DNA from: Verrucomicrobium sp. BvORR034
GTDB taxonomy: Bacteria > Verrucomicrobiota > Verrucomicrobiia > Verrucomicrobiales > Verrucomicrobiaceae
DNA: 64,000 nucleotides
NCBI RefSeq assembly: GCF_000739635.1
Contig: NZ_BATQ01000046.1
Coordinates: 1 to 64,000, forward strand
Direction of reading: 5' to 3'
The notes beneath the pieces were generated by a model. It was not told where the DNA came from. It did not search any database and worked only from the letters and a program-made list of their open reading frames with translations. Below are positions 24,243 through 30,420 of the stretch, piece after piece (within the stretch, counting starts at the first letter, position 1; each line of letters opens with the position of its first letter). The position numbers and the translations under genes were made by a program.

Positions 24243-26531
24243 TTAGAAGCTCACCGTCATGCGCAAACCGTACTCCCGCGGGGCTCCGACGGACCGTGCG
24301 CGGAGGGTGGTGTTGATGTTGGTGTAGTACTCTTCGCCCGTGAGATTGGTGGCATAGGCCGTCACGGTGAGCGGTCCTTTGCGCCAGCCAATCGCGGTGT
24401 TCAGGAGGCCAAAGGTGCCTTGCTCAAACTCTGGCCGGTTCCGGTCATCATAAGTGGTCGGTCCCGTGATGAGATACTCCACCCGGGTGAAGAATCCGCA
24501 TTCCAGATGGAAGTCGGCGGCCAGAAGGCCATTCCACTCCGGAGCATAGGGGAGGGTGTTGCCATCCAGGGAGGTCCCGGTGACGGGATCCGTGAAGCGC
24601 TTGAACTCGGCATGCGTCCAGCCGAAAGAGCCGGAGAGGGTCAAGCGGCGATGTGCGCTCCAGAGGGTCTCAATCTCGGCACCGTAGGTGACAGCGCGGT
24701 CGGCATTGAGCACCACGTAGTCTGCCAGGGACAGCCCGCGCTCGGTTTGGTAGTCGCGGATTTCATTGTAAAAGCCTGCCACATTGACCATCAGGTCTCC
24801 ATCAAGCCATTGGGTGCGGAGCCCTGCTTCGGTGTTCCAGCATTTCTCCGGGTCAAAGGCCAGAAGCCGCTCATCATCGGCATAGGCGCTGTAGCCTCCC
24901 GGTTTGAAGTCGTGTGTGCCCTTGGCATACACCTGGGCGTCTGGAGAGAGTTTCCATTCCACTCCAGCGGTGGGGGTGAGGTGTGTCCACTCCTCCTGCA
25001 CCTTCGTCCGGGGGGAGGCATTGCGGAACGTCGTTTCGGTGGTGAAAGGCTCCGGTGTCGGCACCGGGATGATCAAGGGGGCGCGACGGGGCAGGGGGAC
25101 GACCAGAGGAGCCACCGGTTGGACTCGCGTCAGCGTGGAGACGTCTGTGGTCACAACGCTGTCGCGCTCCATGGCCTTCCGTACCCAGTCCACACGGGCA
25201 CCGGCGTGGAAGGTGAAGGGCTCCCAGCCAGACCAGCTTCCGCCTGCAAAGAAGCCCGCCGTTTCCTCTTCCAGGTGGTAGCGTGTGACCCGGGTGGACG
25301 AGATTTCGGAATCGGACACCGCGACGATTTCCACCACCGGCAGCGGGATTCTGCCCAATCTGGGGAGGGTGATACTCAAGGCCAGCGGGGTGACGGTGAT
25401 GTCCTGTCGCTTGGTGAAAAACGTGCGGACGTTTGCGCCATCCGTCTCGGTGGTTGAGCCGAAAAGGCCGGCGGTCCATTGGAAAGGGCGCTCTGCATCT
25501 GCGCTGCTCCAGCGAAATTCCTGGCTCCACGTTTCCTGCTCCAGATCCACGTCGAATACCCCCAGGGGCTCCGCTGTGTAGTCCGCATCCAGGCTGAAGG
25601 GGGACATCAGCCAGCGTCTGCGGGAGGTCACGCTGAGGAACTTCCAGTCCTCGTTTCCATAGGCAATCCGGAGCGCTTGCTGCTCTGTCTCACGGTGCTG
25701 GCGGCCTTCGTGATCAGGGGAGGCATCGTAGAACCCGGCCCGCTCGTGCGAGGTAAGGCGCGGAGCTCCATCATCGTCGCGACTCCAGGTGCCAGACAGG
25801 CTGATTTCCCAACCTTCCGCTGGCGTGAGATACAGGGCGCCATCCACGTCTGAGTGTTCGATGGAATCGAGGCGGGCTCCAGAGTCTGGGTTTTTGAGAT
25901 AACCGTCCCGGCTCTCATAGCCACCTCCCAACCGGAATGACAGCACGTCTTTGATCAAGGGCCCTGTCAACCAGGCCGAGGTGTTGGTGAAGTTGTAGGA
26001 ACCGACGGTGCTCTGAATTTCACCCTCGATCTGGTCTCCCGGACGGCGGGTGCGGACGTTGATCAGTCCGCCGTACGCGTTCGATCCGCCCGAGAGCGGT
26101 TGGGGGCCGCGGACAAGCTCCACAGACGAGATGGCGGACGCTCGGAGGGCCTGGGAGATGGGGCCTGTAGCAGGCGCATCATCCACGTACACTGCCACAG
26201 CGGGAGGCCCGAAGAAAACCGTATTGCCCAGACCGCGGACGCTCAAGACATCTCCGTAGGCTCCGGAGCCCGAGTCTGTGGCGGAAAAATTTGCCGCCCG
26301 ACGGACCGCTTCTCCCAGATCCTCCACGTGAAACATTTTCAGATCGCTCCCTTGCAGCACCGCTGTTGAGGCAGCGGAAGTGCTTGCTTCCGGGGCAGGG
26401 GAGGCGCTGACGGTGACCTCTGGCAAGGAAACAGGGGACTGGGCTAGGCACCACCGAGTCAGGCCAGCCAGCAAGAGCGAAGGAAGCAATGCTGGACGAA
26501 AGGGGGAGGATCGGATCAAGCTGGGCAACAT
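24243..26531 (-). CDS. TonB-dependent outer-membrane receptor
   Basis: The 762-residue protein starts at ATG 26531 with a signal peptide ending near RWCLAQ. The plug domain spans about residues 35-155 (LPEVTVSAS, GDVLSVRGLGN, SVELVRGPQPLSGGSNAYGGLINV). The barrel follows and ends in the aromatic residue RMTVSF, as needed for outer-membrane insertion. It should import a scarce ligand such as a siderophore or cobalamin. I could not see a cobalamin riboswitch upstream, and the ligand is not readable. It lies upstream of arsR-pst on the same strand with a 127-bp gap. Confidence 0.93.
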   Translation of the reverse strand: MLPSLIRSSPFRPALLPSLLLAGLTRWCLAQSPVSLPEVTVSASPAPEASTSAASTAVLQGSDLKMFHVEDLGEAVRRAANFSATDSGSGAYGDVLSVRGLGNTVFFGPPAVAVYVDDAPATGPISQALRASAISSVELVRGPQPLSGGSNAYGGLINVRTRRPGDQIEGEIQSTVGSYNFTNTSAWLTGPLIKDVLSFRLGGGYESRDGYLKNPDSGARLDSIEHSDVDGALYLTPAEGWEISLSGTWSRDDDGAPRLTSHERAGFYDASPDHEGRQHRETEQQALRIAYGNEDWKFLSVTSRRRWLMSPFSLDADYTAEPLGVFDVDLEQETWSQEFRWSSADAERPFQWTAGLFGSTTETDGANVRTFFTKRQDITVTPLALSITLPRLGRIPLPVVEIVAVSDSEISSTRVTRYHLEEETAGFFAGGSWSGWEPFTFHAGARVDWVRKAMERDSVVTTDVSTLTRVQPVAPLVVPLPRRAPLIIPVPTPEPFTTETTFRNASPRTKVQEEWTHLTPTAGVEWKLSPDAQVYAKGTHDFKPGGYSAYADDERLLAFDPEKCWNTEAGLRTQWLDGDLMVNVAGFYNEIRDYQTERGLSLADYVVLNADRAVTYGAEIETLWSAHRRLTLSGSFGWTHAEFKRFTDPVTGTSLDGNTLPYAPEWNGLLAADFHLECGFFTRVEYLITGPTTYDDRNRPEFEQGTFGLLNTAIGWRKGPLTVTAYATNLTGEEYYTNINTTLRARSVGAPREYGLRMTVSF

Positions 26532-26828
26532 GAAAGACGCGGACTCGGGCGCAACAGAACAGCGGTTTCCTCCCTGCTTGGCAAGTCTCATTCTTGCCGT
26601 GCCCGGCGGTTTGGGGCTCTCCCGGAATCTTCCTGGTAAATGTTGGGCGGCGGTATTGCGAAAAAACAAAACCTCCCATGGTGCTGAGGACGTATAATTT
26701 AAATAGCTTGCACCGGCATCAAGACCCGTTACAATCCGCGCCACTTTTTTCAGCGGCCCGTGTTTGGATACAAAGGTCGTTTGGAGAGAGTGCAGGCTCC
26801 CGGCTTGCGCACTTCATTCCTCACTGCC
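26532..26828. other. 297-bp divergent promoter region
   Basis: This region separates the TonB receptor gene (minus strand) from the DksA-like gene (plus strand). An AT-rich tract (TATAATTTAAATAG) at 26691-26704 could carry a -10 element. No riboswitch-like structure or gene was recognised. Confidence 0.4.
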
Positions 26829-27923
26829 ATGGCCACGAAACCTTCGAAAAATACCGCGGCGGACGCCAAGAATGGGGCCAAGTCAGCCCCTGCCCCCAAG
26901 GCCGCAACGAACAAAAAGCAGGAAACCGGTGTCAAAGCGCCGCCTGAGAAAAAGAAGAGTGCACCGGTTGCATCCAAGGGCACTCCTGCCCCTCAACCAT
27001 CCAAGAAACCCGCTGACCCCAAGGCCAAACAGACCACTTCAGCAGCGGGCACCCCAGTTCCTTCCAGCGTGAAAAAATCAGCGACCCCTACAACCGAAAA
27101 AGCCACCGCCACAGCCTCTAAAGCCAAGGATGCCAAGGCCCCTGAGAAAAAAGCCGCAGTGAAAGCAGAAGGCGCCGCCGAAGACGCGCCCGCTCCGGCT
27201 CCCAAGGCGACAAAGGCCAAGGCTGAGGCTCCCGCTCCGAAGGAAGAGGCCGCCCCTGCCCCCAAGGCAGCCAAGCCCAAGCCCGCGACGAAGGCCAATG
27301 CTCCCTTGACGGCTCCTGCTCCCCCCAGCAAGCCCGTGCCCCCTCCGAAGATCAAAAAGCCCATCTTGGATTCCGCTCCCGAAGTGGTGATCAAGCAGGC
27401 CTACAACCCGACCAAGCTTCCTCCTTTCATCAAAAAACAGCAGCAGCGCCTCATCGAGTTGCGCAGTGCTCTGCTGGACTCCATGGACCTCGTGGCCAAG
27501 GACAGCCTCCGGAACCGCCCTGAGGGCAGCGAGGCTTCCGTGGGTGGCATGCACATGGCCGATGCGGGCAGTGATGCCTATGACCGCGATTTCGCGCTGA
27601 GCATGCTCAGCAAGGAACAGGACGCACTTTACGAAATCAACGAAGCGCTCGACCGCGTGGGCCAGGGTGTCTACGGCGTCTGCGAACTTTCCGGCGAGAA
27701 GATCAACGACGAGCGCCTCGAGGCCCTGCCGTACGCCCGCTACACCCGGGAGATGCAGGAGCAGATTGAGCGCGACCAGATGGGTGGCCGCCTCCGTCGC
27801 GCCCCTGTCCGCTCGGTCTTCGGACTTGAAGAAGACGGGGAAGAAGGTGAGGACGGCGAGGACGAAGATCGTCCCGCAAACAACAATCAGAACGAATCCT
27901 CGCTTGACTTCATGAAGGAGTAG
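26829..27923 (+). CDS. DksA/TraR-like protein with Lys/Ala/Pro-rich N-terminal tail
   Basis: The 364-residue protein starts at ATG 26829. Residues 1 to about 180 are low-complexity Lys/Ala/Pro, like histone H1-type bacterial tails. The C-terminal part (about 192-320) matches DksA/TraR: a coiled-coil hairpin (RLIELRSALLDSMD) and the end of a zinc-finger region (YGVCELSGEKINDERLEALPYARYTREMQ). Only one of the four zinc cysteines (Cys285) remains, so the finger is degenerate. The tail after that is acidic. It may act at the RNA polymerase secondary channel or as a nucleoid-bound factor. It is followed after 20 bp by rpmG and then rpsR. Confidence 0.75.
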   Translation: MATKPSKNTAADAKNGAKSAPAPKAATNKKQETGVKAPPEKKKSAPVASKGTPAPQPSKKPADPKAKQTTSAAGTPVPSSVKKSATPTTEKATATASKAKDAKAPEKKAAVKAEGAAEDAPAPAPKATKAKAEAPAPKEEAAPAPKAAKPKPATKANAPLTAPAPPSKPVPPPKIKKPILDSAPEVVIKQAYNPTKLPPFIKKQQQRLIELRSALLDSMDLVAKDSLRNRPEGSEASVGGMHMADAGSDAYDRDFALSMLSKEQDALYEINEALDRVGQGVYGVCELSGEKINDERLEALPYARYTREMQEQIERDQMGGRLRRAPVRSVFGLEEDGEEGEDGEDEDRPANNNQNESSLDFMKE

Positions 27924-27943: not shown

Positions 27944-28117
27944 ATGCCCCGCGACATCATCATCCTCGAATGCACCGAAGCCAAGGCGGCAGGAATGCCG
28001 ACCTCACGCTACGTGACCACGCGCAACAAAAAGAGCGTGCGCACGCCTGGCCGTTTGGAAAAGGTCAAGTTTAACCACTTCCTCAAGCGCAGGACGCTTC
28101 ACCGCGAAATTCGCTAA
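27944..28117 (+). CDS. rpmG: Ribosomal protein bL33
   Basis: The 57-residue protein starts at ATG 27944. IILECTEAKAAG, SRYVTTRNKKS and a basic C-terminal half match bL33 of the large ribosomal subunit. The two CxxC pairs of zinc-binding L33 are absent (only one Cys remains), so this is the zinc-independent type. It is followed by rpsR after 30 bp. Confidence 0.9.
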   Translation: MPRDIIILECTEAKAAGMPTSRYVTTRNKKSVRTPGRLEKVKFNHFLKRRTLHREIR

Positions 28118-28147: not shown

Positions 28148-28387
28148 ATGCAACCCAAGACCCGCGAACGTCTCTCCGCCTTCCGCCGCGCCAACCGCAA
28201 GCTCCCGCGCCGCCGGATGGACATCCCGATGGACAAGTTGAACTACAAGCATCCTGAGATCCTTGCCAAGTTCGCCACTGAGACCGGCAAAATTCTTCCT
28301 CGTCGCGTGACGGGTGTGTCTGCCTATGTGCACCGCACCATCACCCGCGAAATCAAGCGCGCCCGCTCCCTGAATCTCATGCCCTGA
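28148..28387 (+). CDS. rpsR: Ribosomal protein bS18
   Basis: The 79-residue protein shows the bS18 core: DKLNYKHPEILAKFATETGK, ILPRRVTGVSAYVHRTI and a basic tail. It binds 16S rRNA and S6 in the small subunit. It lies 30 bp after rpmG and ends just before a terminator, so DksA-like, rpmG and rpsR probably form one unit. Confidence 0.93.
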   Translation: MQPKTRERLSAFRRANRKLPRRRMDIPMDKLNYKHPEILAKFATETGKILPRRVTGVSAYVHRTITREIKRARSLNLMP

Positions 28388-28456: not shown

Positions 28457-28508
28457 GTTCTGATGCCACGAAGCGCGTGGTGTCGTTTCCTTTCGCTTGC
28501 CTCTGACC

Positions 28509-29285
28509 ATGCTGCACGACACCCAAAACCAACGCGACGTTCGGGGAATCCCTATTGATCGTGTCGGCGTCAAGAACCTCAGATTCCCCCTGAAGATTCG
28601 AGACCGTGATCACGCGGAGCAGAGCACAGTGGCCGTCGTCTCCCTGGCGGTGGACCTGCCGCACCACTTCAAAGGCACCCACATGAGCCGGTTTGTGGAG
28701 GTTCTGCATGCGCACGGGAACGTGCTGACCGTTGCAGACATTGCCGGGATGCCCAGGGAGCTTCTCGCACGACTTCATGCCGAGAAGGCGCATGTGGAGT
28801 TTAAGTTTCCGTATTTCCGCACGAAGAAGGCACCAGTCACCGGGGCAGAAGGATTGCTCGATTACGGGGTGAATTTTCAGGTGAACGCCCAAGGGCAGAA
28901 CGTGGATTTTGTGGTGACGGTGGAGGTCCCTGTGGCCACCCTGTGCCCTTGTTCCAAGGCGATCAGCGCCCGGGGTGCGCACAATCAGCGTGGGATGGTG
29001 ACGTTTTCAGTCCGGTTTACCGAGCCGGTCTGGATTGAGGACCTCATCGAACTGGTGGAAGCCAGCGCGAGTTGCGAACTCTACAGCGTGCTCAAGCGTC
29101 CGGATGAGAAGCTCGTCACGGAACGGGCTTACGACAATCCGGTGTTTGTGGAAGACCTCGTCCGCAACGTGGCCCTGAAGGCCAAGGAAGATTCCCGCAT
29201 CACCTGGTTCCGAGTCGAAGCGGAAAACTACGAGTCCATCCACAACCACAATGCGTGGGCGGTGGTGGAGTCGGAAGTTCGGTAG
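28509..29285 (+). CDS. folE2: GTP cyclohydrolase I type IB (FolE2)
   Basis: The 258-residue enzyme starts at ATG 28509. VEVPVATLCPCSKAIS contains the conserved Cys ligands, and VKNLRFPLKIRD, GTHMSRFVEVL and NHNAWAVVE match FolE2. It converts GTP to dihydroneopterin triphosphate, the shared entry point to folate and queuosine synthesis. FolE2 works with several metals and is often used under zinc limitation, although here it may be the only GTP cyclohydrolase in the window. The queF and queC genes lie about 8 kb away on the same strand. Confidence 0.93.
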   Translation: MLHDTQNQRDVRGIPIDRVGVKNLRFPLKIRDRDHAEQSTVAVVSLAVDLPHHFKGTHMSRFVEVLHAHGNVLTVADIAGMPRELLARLHAEKAHVEFKFPYFRTKKAPVTGAEGLLDYGVNFQVNAQGQNVDFVVTVEVPVATLCPCSKAISARGAHNQRGMVTFSVRFTEPVWIEDLIELVEASASCELYSVLKRPDEKLVTERAYDNPVFVEDLVRNVALKAKEDSRITWFRVEAENYESIHNHNAWAVVESEVR

Positions 29286-29427: not shown

Positions 29428-30420
29428 ATGAACTCCGTCGTTTTTCGTGGTGGCCTTGTTGGAATCTTTCTGGGGCTGCTGACGCCGTGTGGTCATGCGA
29501 GAGCCTTTAAAGACAAGTCAGGGCGGGTGATCGAGGCCGAGATTGTGGCCAAGCAAGGGGAACAGGTGAAGATTCGCCGTGCTGATGGACGCGAGTTCAC
29601 GCTAGCCGTGAATCTGCTCTCACCGGAAGACCAGCAATTTGTGCAATCCTGGCAGACTCCAGGAGCGTCGGCTGGAGGTGTGGCGGCCAAGGTGACGCCG
29701 GCGACGGATGCCCGCCTCAAGCCGGGCGCGACCGTCACGCTGACTTTTCCTGATCTGCCCAAGGATCACAATGGGGAGGCCGCCGCCTGCAACGTTCGCA
29801 TCCCCGAGTCGTTTGATCCTGCCAAACCCGTGCCGCTCCTGGTCTGGATCGGCGGTGGCAAGGGGAGCAATCAACCGGGAGGCGGCTTTCCTCTGGTGGA
29901 CAAATCGCAATACGTCATCGCGGGCCTGCCCTATCCCAACACCGCGCCTTCACCCAACAAGGCGATGGGTGAGGGGAAGATGGAGCTGATTCTCGACTAC
30001 CAGCAGACCATGCTGGCAGAGTTGATCAAACTTCTGCCCAATCTTGATCCCCAAGTCAAAGTGGTGGCAGGCTTCAGCAATGGGGCTCACACCATCGGCA
30101 GCGCGGTGGCGTTCGGGCGGAAGGAGTACACGGAGTTCTTCAATGCCTTTGTCGTCATTGAGGGCGGGGCGCAGACCAACTCCGCCAAGAAGAAGCTGCG
30201 GGACAAGTATGGCTACTTTGCCTGGGGCAACACGGGCAATGGATCCAAGGAATACATGAGGGCCATGATGCAGGCGGCCAAGGATGCCCGGCTGGAAATC
30301 ACTGAGCACGAGATGGAGGGGATTGCGCATGAGTTTCCCGAAAGCGAGAAGGCACTCGTGAAAGCATGGATTGAAAAAACAGTGATCCCCGGTCTTCGTG
30401 CCACAGGCGGGCGCTCCTGA
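29428..30420 (+). CDS. Secreted protein with SHD1-like domain and alpha/beta hydrolase-like domain
   Basis: The 330-residue protein has a signal peptide ending near CGHARA. Residues 26-75 resemble the SLA1 homology domain 1 (FKDKSGRVIEAEIVAKQGEQ, then REFTLAVNLLSPEDQQFV), a fold common in Verrucomicrobia and Planctomycetes. Residues 95-325 look like an alpha/beta hydrolase (VPLLVWIGGG, nucleophile elbow AGFSNGAH with Ser near 216, and a C-terminal His in GIAHEF). It is predicted to be a periplasmic esterase-like enzyme or a binding protein with a degraded active site; the substrate is unknown. Confidence 0.7.
   Translation: MNSVVFRGGLVGIFLGLLTPCGHARAFKDKSGRVIEAEIVAKQGEQVKIRRADGREFTLAVNLLSPEDQQFVQSWQTPGASAGGVAAKVTPATDARLKPGATVTLTFPDLPKDHNGEAAACNVRIPESFDPAKPVPLLVWIGGGKGSNQPGGGFPLVDKSQYVIAGLPYPNTAPSPNKAMGEGKMELILDYQQTMLAELIKLLPNLDPQVKVVAGFSNGAHTIGSAVAFGRKEYTEFFNAFVVIEGGAQTNSAKKKLRDKYGYFAWGNTGNGSKEYMRAMMQAAKDARLEITEHEMEGIAHEFPESEKALVKAWIEKTVIPGLRATGGRS

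Follow-up and report, generated by a model that had tools for sequence, protein, structure and literature searches.

Verrucomicrobium sp. BvORR034 encodes a DksA-like protein of 364 aa in which a DksA fold, altered at its zinc-binding and ppGpp-contacting positions, is preceded by a long basic tail and followed by an acidic one. The gene is located on the plus strand at 26829..27923 of the window, i.e., the whole 64,000-nucleotide stretch of DNA analysed here. The protein is genuine and represents a conserved variant within the DksA/TraR superfamily, neither a chance reading nor an artefact, and no description of a tailed DksA was found in a literature search. DksA is best known as a ppGpp partner and a zinc-finger protein. 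The variant described here probably acts as a ppGpp- and zinc-independent factor of the RNA polymerase (RNAP) secondary channel with a nucleic-acid-binding tail, working in a manner similar to that of CarD from Myxococcus xanthus.

Gene, DksA fold and distribution

The ATG start codon at 26829 is kept in the sister genomes and across the family, and an upstream GTG at 26760 was not favoured because of this family-wide conservation; the stop is at 27923. A wrong-frame or chance low-complexity reading was also rejected, since the domain is strongly constrained and both the frame and the composition of the tail are kept. The only Pfam family matched in the protein was zf-dskA_traR (31.6 bits, cut-off 24.9), with a single match in the genome, so the window protein is its only DksA/TraR-superfamily member. 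Among the NCBIfam models, those for yteA and DksA were matched below their cut-offs, including the DksA equivalog models TIGR02420 (33.4 against 115.5 bits) and NF033459 (46.4 against 105 bits). The Pfam search of the protein gave no CarD_TRCF_RID domain, the only one in the genome being situated in a 1153-aa frame elsewhere.

The structure prediction proposed in an earlier note, which had been made from the sequence of this DNA, gave a DksA-like result. The AlphaFold2 model, based on 51 homologues, contains a coiled coil, a finger and a C-terminal helix, with pLDDT over 90 in the core. The two-helix coiled coil (residues 199-279, 27423..27665, plus strand) is made up of predicted helices 199-225 and 249-279, the cores of which also have pLDDT over 90; it is followed by the finger (residues 280-311, 27666..27761, plus strand) and by the C-terminal helix of the fold (residues 307-323, 27747..27797, plus strand). 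The best Foldseek matches were DksA2 (4ijj), RNAP-bound E. coli DksA (7khi and 5vsw) and C. trachomatis DksA (6ptg). In VIA-align, a Z of 13.2 (rmsd 2.2, 114 aligned) was obtained for DksA2 and a Z of 11.6-12.0 for E. coli DksA (12.0 and 11.8 for its RNAP-bound structures), compared to 8.6 for the best unrelated row; numerous unrelated coiled coils scored Z 7-8.6. The residues of the tip motif, H242-x-x-D245-x-G247, are invariant in the alignment of relatives. D245 falls opposite the DksA2 tip Asp in the profile alignment and, by hand alignment, takes the position of E. coli D74, with His242 at the position of D71.

A search of relatives for the same fusion detected the DksA-type domain in 56 of 59 family genomes and in 140 of 141 class genomes. 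Most of these proteins have a basic tail, and the relatives include Verrucomicrobium sp. BvORR106, Prosthecobacter, Phragmitibacter and Chthoniobacter. The fusion, which the earlier note had considered unusual, is indeed so against the textbook DksA and is the norm within the class. A second DksA-like protein, 37-41% identical, is encoded besides the tailed one in a few family genomes (G298:C12, G321:C10 and G323:C1). The gene is adjoined by rpsR in 191 of the 213 proteins with the E..Q pattern (E at the K98 position and Q at the K139 position of E. coli DksA); this count, like the others given below for relative proteins, comes from fetched loci, selected in part on the basis of score and in some cases representing one genome more than once, with tail starts set by rule, and so is not an unbiased census.

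ppGpp contacts, zinc ligands and the operon

The profile alignment to PDB 1tjl places E269, L300 and Q310 of the window protein (27633..27758, plus strand) at residues K98, R129 and K139 of E. coli DksA, respectively, and these replacements are conserved in relatives. In the E. coli protein, K98 and K139 coordinate the ppGpp phosphates and R129 contacts ppGpp; the K98A and R129A variants keep RNAP binding and the shortening of promoter-complex lifetime and do not support site-2 ppGpp binding (PMC7676912). E at the K98 position together with Q at the K139 position was found in 206 of the 208 proteins with fewer than four Cys, as well as in seven with four Cys; the short four-Cys proteins of other lineages mostly retain a basic residue at position 129 and K139. 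A domain search of the genome (99.96% completeness) gave no RelA_SpoT domain, and the organism apparently cannot make ppGpp. Within the phylum, a RelA/SpoT domain was present in 15 of 289 genomes versus 279 of 289 for zf-dskA_traR, and the absence of RSH from PVC bacteria has been published (PMC3153485). An ordinary ppGpp-responsive DksA, as family and fold taken by themselves would imply, is thus highly improbable here, given that all three tested contact residues are replaced and that synthetases are missing from this genome and scarce in the phylum. The presence of DksA in a bacterium devoid of ppGpp synthesis genes is known from C. trachomatis (PMC10995303), so the combination is not new in itself; what is added is its reach across a free-living phylum, together with the tail.

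The finger is degenerate, as had been noted: C285 is the only Cys, and the other three ligand positions are occupied by S288, T306 and M309. Such degeneration is common to C. trachomatis DksA (one Cys) and P. aeruginosa DksA2 (two Cys). The relatives show a graded loss of zinc ligands from four Cys to one, the 247 aligned proteins being divided into CCCC (39), CCTC or CCDC (13), CSTC or CTTC (130) and one-Cys types (65). The first ligand Cys is invariant in 247 of 247, even where the other three are gone. On an 80-row tree with a midpoint root and some long branches, the four Cys-number classes require 10 changes, and the one-Cys proteins form several separate groups.

The description of the gene as the leader of an rpmG-rpsR unit was borne out. 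The rpmG gene (ribosomal protein L33, one Cys, 27944..28117) starts 20 nt downstream of dksA and is followed by rpsR (ribosomal protein S18, no Cys, 28148..28387), both assigned by Pfam and found by own-genome search to be the only copies, and then by folE2 for a zinc-independent GTP cyclohydrolase (28497..29285, Pfam and synteny); all are on the plus strand. A terminator scan placed a terminator-like stem between rpsR and folE2 (28461-28485), and a consensus scan gave no sigma-70-like promoter at the locus. The dksA-rpmG-rpsR order is kept through most of the class. The L33 encoded next door has a single Cys, as does the window DksA. A TonB-dependent receptor gene (24243-26744, minus strand) is divergent from the operon and adjoins it only in same-genus loci; beside folE2, a 330-aa open frame (29428-30417 of the window, plus strand) gave no Pfam match.

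A zinc-sparing history of the locus is plausible and, as an account of the loss of zinc ligands, compatible with the main reading. According to this explanation, the zinc-free DksA, the Cys-poor L33 and S18 and FolE2 would have replaced zinc-using ancestral forms, maybe in connection with zinc supply, although we consider it to be on the unlikely side. It would accommodate the position of folE2, which comes after rpsR in every one of the 29 further family loci inspected and precedes dksA in six loci outside the family, as well as the fact that L33, S18 and DksA are sole copies and that zinc-dependent FolE1 was absent from the genome by own-genome search. Moreover, dksA2 and folE2 of P. aeruginosa form one zinc-starvation-induced cluster (PMC4542158). 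At the same time, no folE2 was detected in many Chthoniobacter-type loci that had sufficient space for it, and the region upstream of the window operon gave no clear Zur-type palindrome and one imperfect repeat (26569-26609). The L33 and S18 genes, as sole copies, cannot serve only as backups for starvation; Cys-poor versions of both proteins are the normal sole copies in E. coli too and are not rare.

The basic and acidic tails

The H1-like character attributed to residues 1 to about 180 was confirmed in composition: these residues contain 21% Lys, 26% Ala and 18% Pro, with a pI of 10.2 and a net charge of +24. In the AlphaFold2 model of the full protein, the disorder extends to about residue 198 (no secondary structure, pLDDT about 50), and the basic N-terminal region accordingly occupies residues 1-198 (26829..27422, plus strand). 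A basic, disordered segment rich in Lys, Ala and Pro is a feature shared with bacterial H1-like tail proteins such as AlgP, PhaF and Hc1. The best 100-aa stretch of the tail reaches 71% K+A+P, and the maximum in a same-genus sister genome was 46% (100-aa stretches with at least 15% Lys, in 663 non-overlapping ORFs from 800 kb evenly drawn). Since none of these 663 ORFs exceeded 46%, a common genomic habit of K/A/P linkers was rejected as the origin of the tail.

All 27 full-length family tails (27/27) have a length of 136-237 aa and a net charge of +20 to +58, their composition being kept despite low identity; the window tail is less basic than most of them (+22 versus up to +58). Tails of at least 40 aa with a net charge of +10 or more were found in 171 of the 213 E..Q-type proteins, and basic tails recur in distant lineages of the phylum. 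Some class members have near-neutral or short tails (net -7 and -4 in L169 and L170), so strong basicity of the tail is not a requirement in every case. KPAA is enriched in the family tails (24 versus a shuffle mean of 6.2), and the window's own tail contains neither KPAA nor PAKK repeats. No H1-type family model matched the tail in the Pfam search, low-complexity tails often yielding none, and the only tandem repeat detected in the DNA was a weak 9-nt array in the acidic part. Judging by composition, a nucleoid-type role of the tail is a reasonable hypothesis. Lys/Ala-rich tails of about 200-300 aa are also present beside a full four-Cys finger in distant phylum members (L028, L029, L047, L048 and L050), so the tail and the zinc loss are not tied together. 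The one chromosome-like actinobacterial hit examined, from Nonomuraea (L300), is a 133-aa protein without a tail.

Compared to the same-genus locus L054, 26 nonsynonymous and 27 synonymous codon changes were found in the tail versus 3 and 34 in the domain. This fast amino-acid change, along with the variable length and the neutral or short tails of some class members, is what would be expected of a passive spacer or solubility region with drifting composition and no binding role, where only the DksA domain matters. Such a region seems rather improbable, because composition and positive charge are kept throughout the full-length family tails and in most E..Q-type proteins, the 800-kb sister-genome sample contained no similar ORF, and the tail is recurrent in distant lineages. 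A similarly low probability is given to a tail that serves RNA, ribosomes or polyphosphate instead of DNA, its ligand being nascent rRNA, ribosomal protein mRNA or polyphosphate granules. The conservation of rpmG and rpsR in the same operon and the requirement of AlgP's similar tail for polyphosphate granule spacing (PMC9239181) point in this direction; however, operon membership does not bear directly on binding, and the RNAP-type fold and the CarD precedent favour the DNA side.

At the other end of the protein, the DksA helix is followed by the conserved motif RSVFGL (residues 328-333, 27810..27827, plus strand), often [RT]SLFGL in relatives and replaced by RRW-x(3)-PQFMD in another clade. 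Residues 334-364 (27828..27920, plus strand), recognized by composition and alignment, form the acidic C-terminal tail that ends with SSLDFMKE. SLDFxK[ED] is terminal in 48 proteins, and the last 30 residues of the aligned relatives have a median excess of 9 acidic over basic residues. The basic N-terminal tail and the acidic C-terminal tract make the protein bipolar, which recalls the C-terminal domain of CarD with its acidic and basic parts (PMC4374960).

Proposed mode of action and known systems

In the secondary-channel reading that we favour, the coiled coil with its tip Asp, D245, most likely enters the RNAP secondary channel, where the stability of promoter complexes would be altered as by DksA or TraR, though with no need for ppGpp or structural zinc. 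Nonspecific binding to nucleic acid, probably to the DNA of the chromosome, is the most likely function of the disordered basic tail and would hold the factor near the nucleoid or promoter DNA. Competition between DNA and the acidic C-terminal tail for the basic one may provide a brake, and the whole could have a role in setting ribosomal gene expression. This reading draws, for the domain, on the DksA fold, the invariant D245 and G247, the replaced ppGpp contacts and the absence of the RelA_SpoT domain, and, for the tail, on its disorder, its outlier composition in the genome, the charge kept in the family and the precedents of CarD and AlgP. Counted against it are the missing KPAA/PAKK repeats, the lower charge, the lack of an H1 model match and the short or near-neutral tails of some class members, as well as the failure of C. 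trachomatis DksA to complement an E. coli defect in minimal medium (Mandel et al., cited in PMC10995303). A more far-reaching view, which is offered only tentatively, is that in this phylum, where ppGpp synthetases are mostly missing, DksA has turned into a secondary-channel regulator that is constitutive, zinc-free and tethered to chromatin; the modulation exerted elsewhere by ppGpp would have passed to the H1-like and acidic tails or to some ligand.

A near-universal, mostly single-copy DksA homologue persists in a phylum nearly without RelA/SpoT synthetases, and DksA function without ppGpp becomes testable in free-living, culturable bacteria. New are the loss of the ppGpp contacts along with synthetase absence, the position of a sole DksA/TraR protein beside Cys-poor rpmG and rpsR and folE2, and the acidic tail that matches the basic one.

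The closest solved sequence is C. trachomatis DksA (6ptg, profile E 1.8e-28), whose matched stretch has a single Cys, at the first of the ligand positions, and whose host is also without ppGpp synthesis genes (PMC10995303); its 132-residue chain, however, carries neither the long basic tail nor the acidic C-terminal tail. The GreA of this organism is oversized (715 aa; PMC10995303), and among our loci a GreA/GreB C-terminal domain was found inside a 667-aa open frame (G000:C104:19649-19873, locus L192), so a large GreA may be a trait common to these phyla. P. aeruginosa DksA2 (4ijj), the best structural match, is likewise a zinc-free DksA fold with folE2 as a genomic neighbour, but it is a tail-less zinc-starvation backup to the four-Cys DksA1, whereas the present organism has only the zinc-free form. 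E. coli DksA and the F-plasmid TraR share the coiled-coil plus globular secondary-channel fold, and TraR resembles the window protein in the ppGpp independence proposed for the latter; E. coli DksA differs in having four zinc cysteines and the ppGpp site-2 residues, both lost here, and neither protein has a basic tail.

For the tail, the Pseudomonas proteins AlgP and PhaF provide a comparison: they have disordered Lys/Ala/Pro-rich tails, KPAA also being enriched in the family of the window protein, and a fragment of the H1-like KPAA tail of AlgP binds DNA (PMC9239181). Their tails are fused to other domains, and the window's own tail is without KPAA. M. xanthus CarD combines an RNAP-binding domain with an unfolded, HMGA-like DNA-binding domain made up of acidic and basic segments, and it becomes less active, though not inactive, when the HMGA-like part is deleted (PMC4374960). 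With its CarD_CdnL_TRCF fold, its target in the RNAP beta subunit and its tail at the other end, CarD is an analogue and not a relative; the window protein would be a second case, unrelated to the first, in which a histone-like tail is attached to an RNA-polymerase factor.
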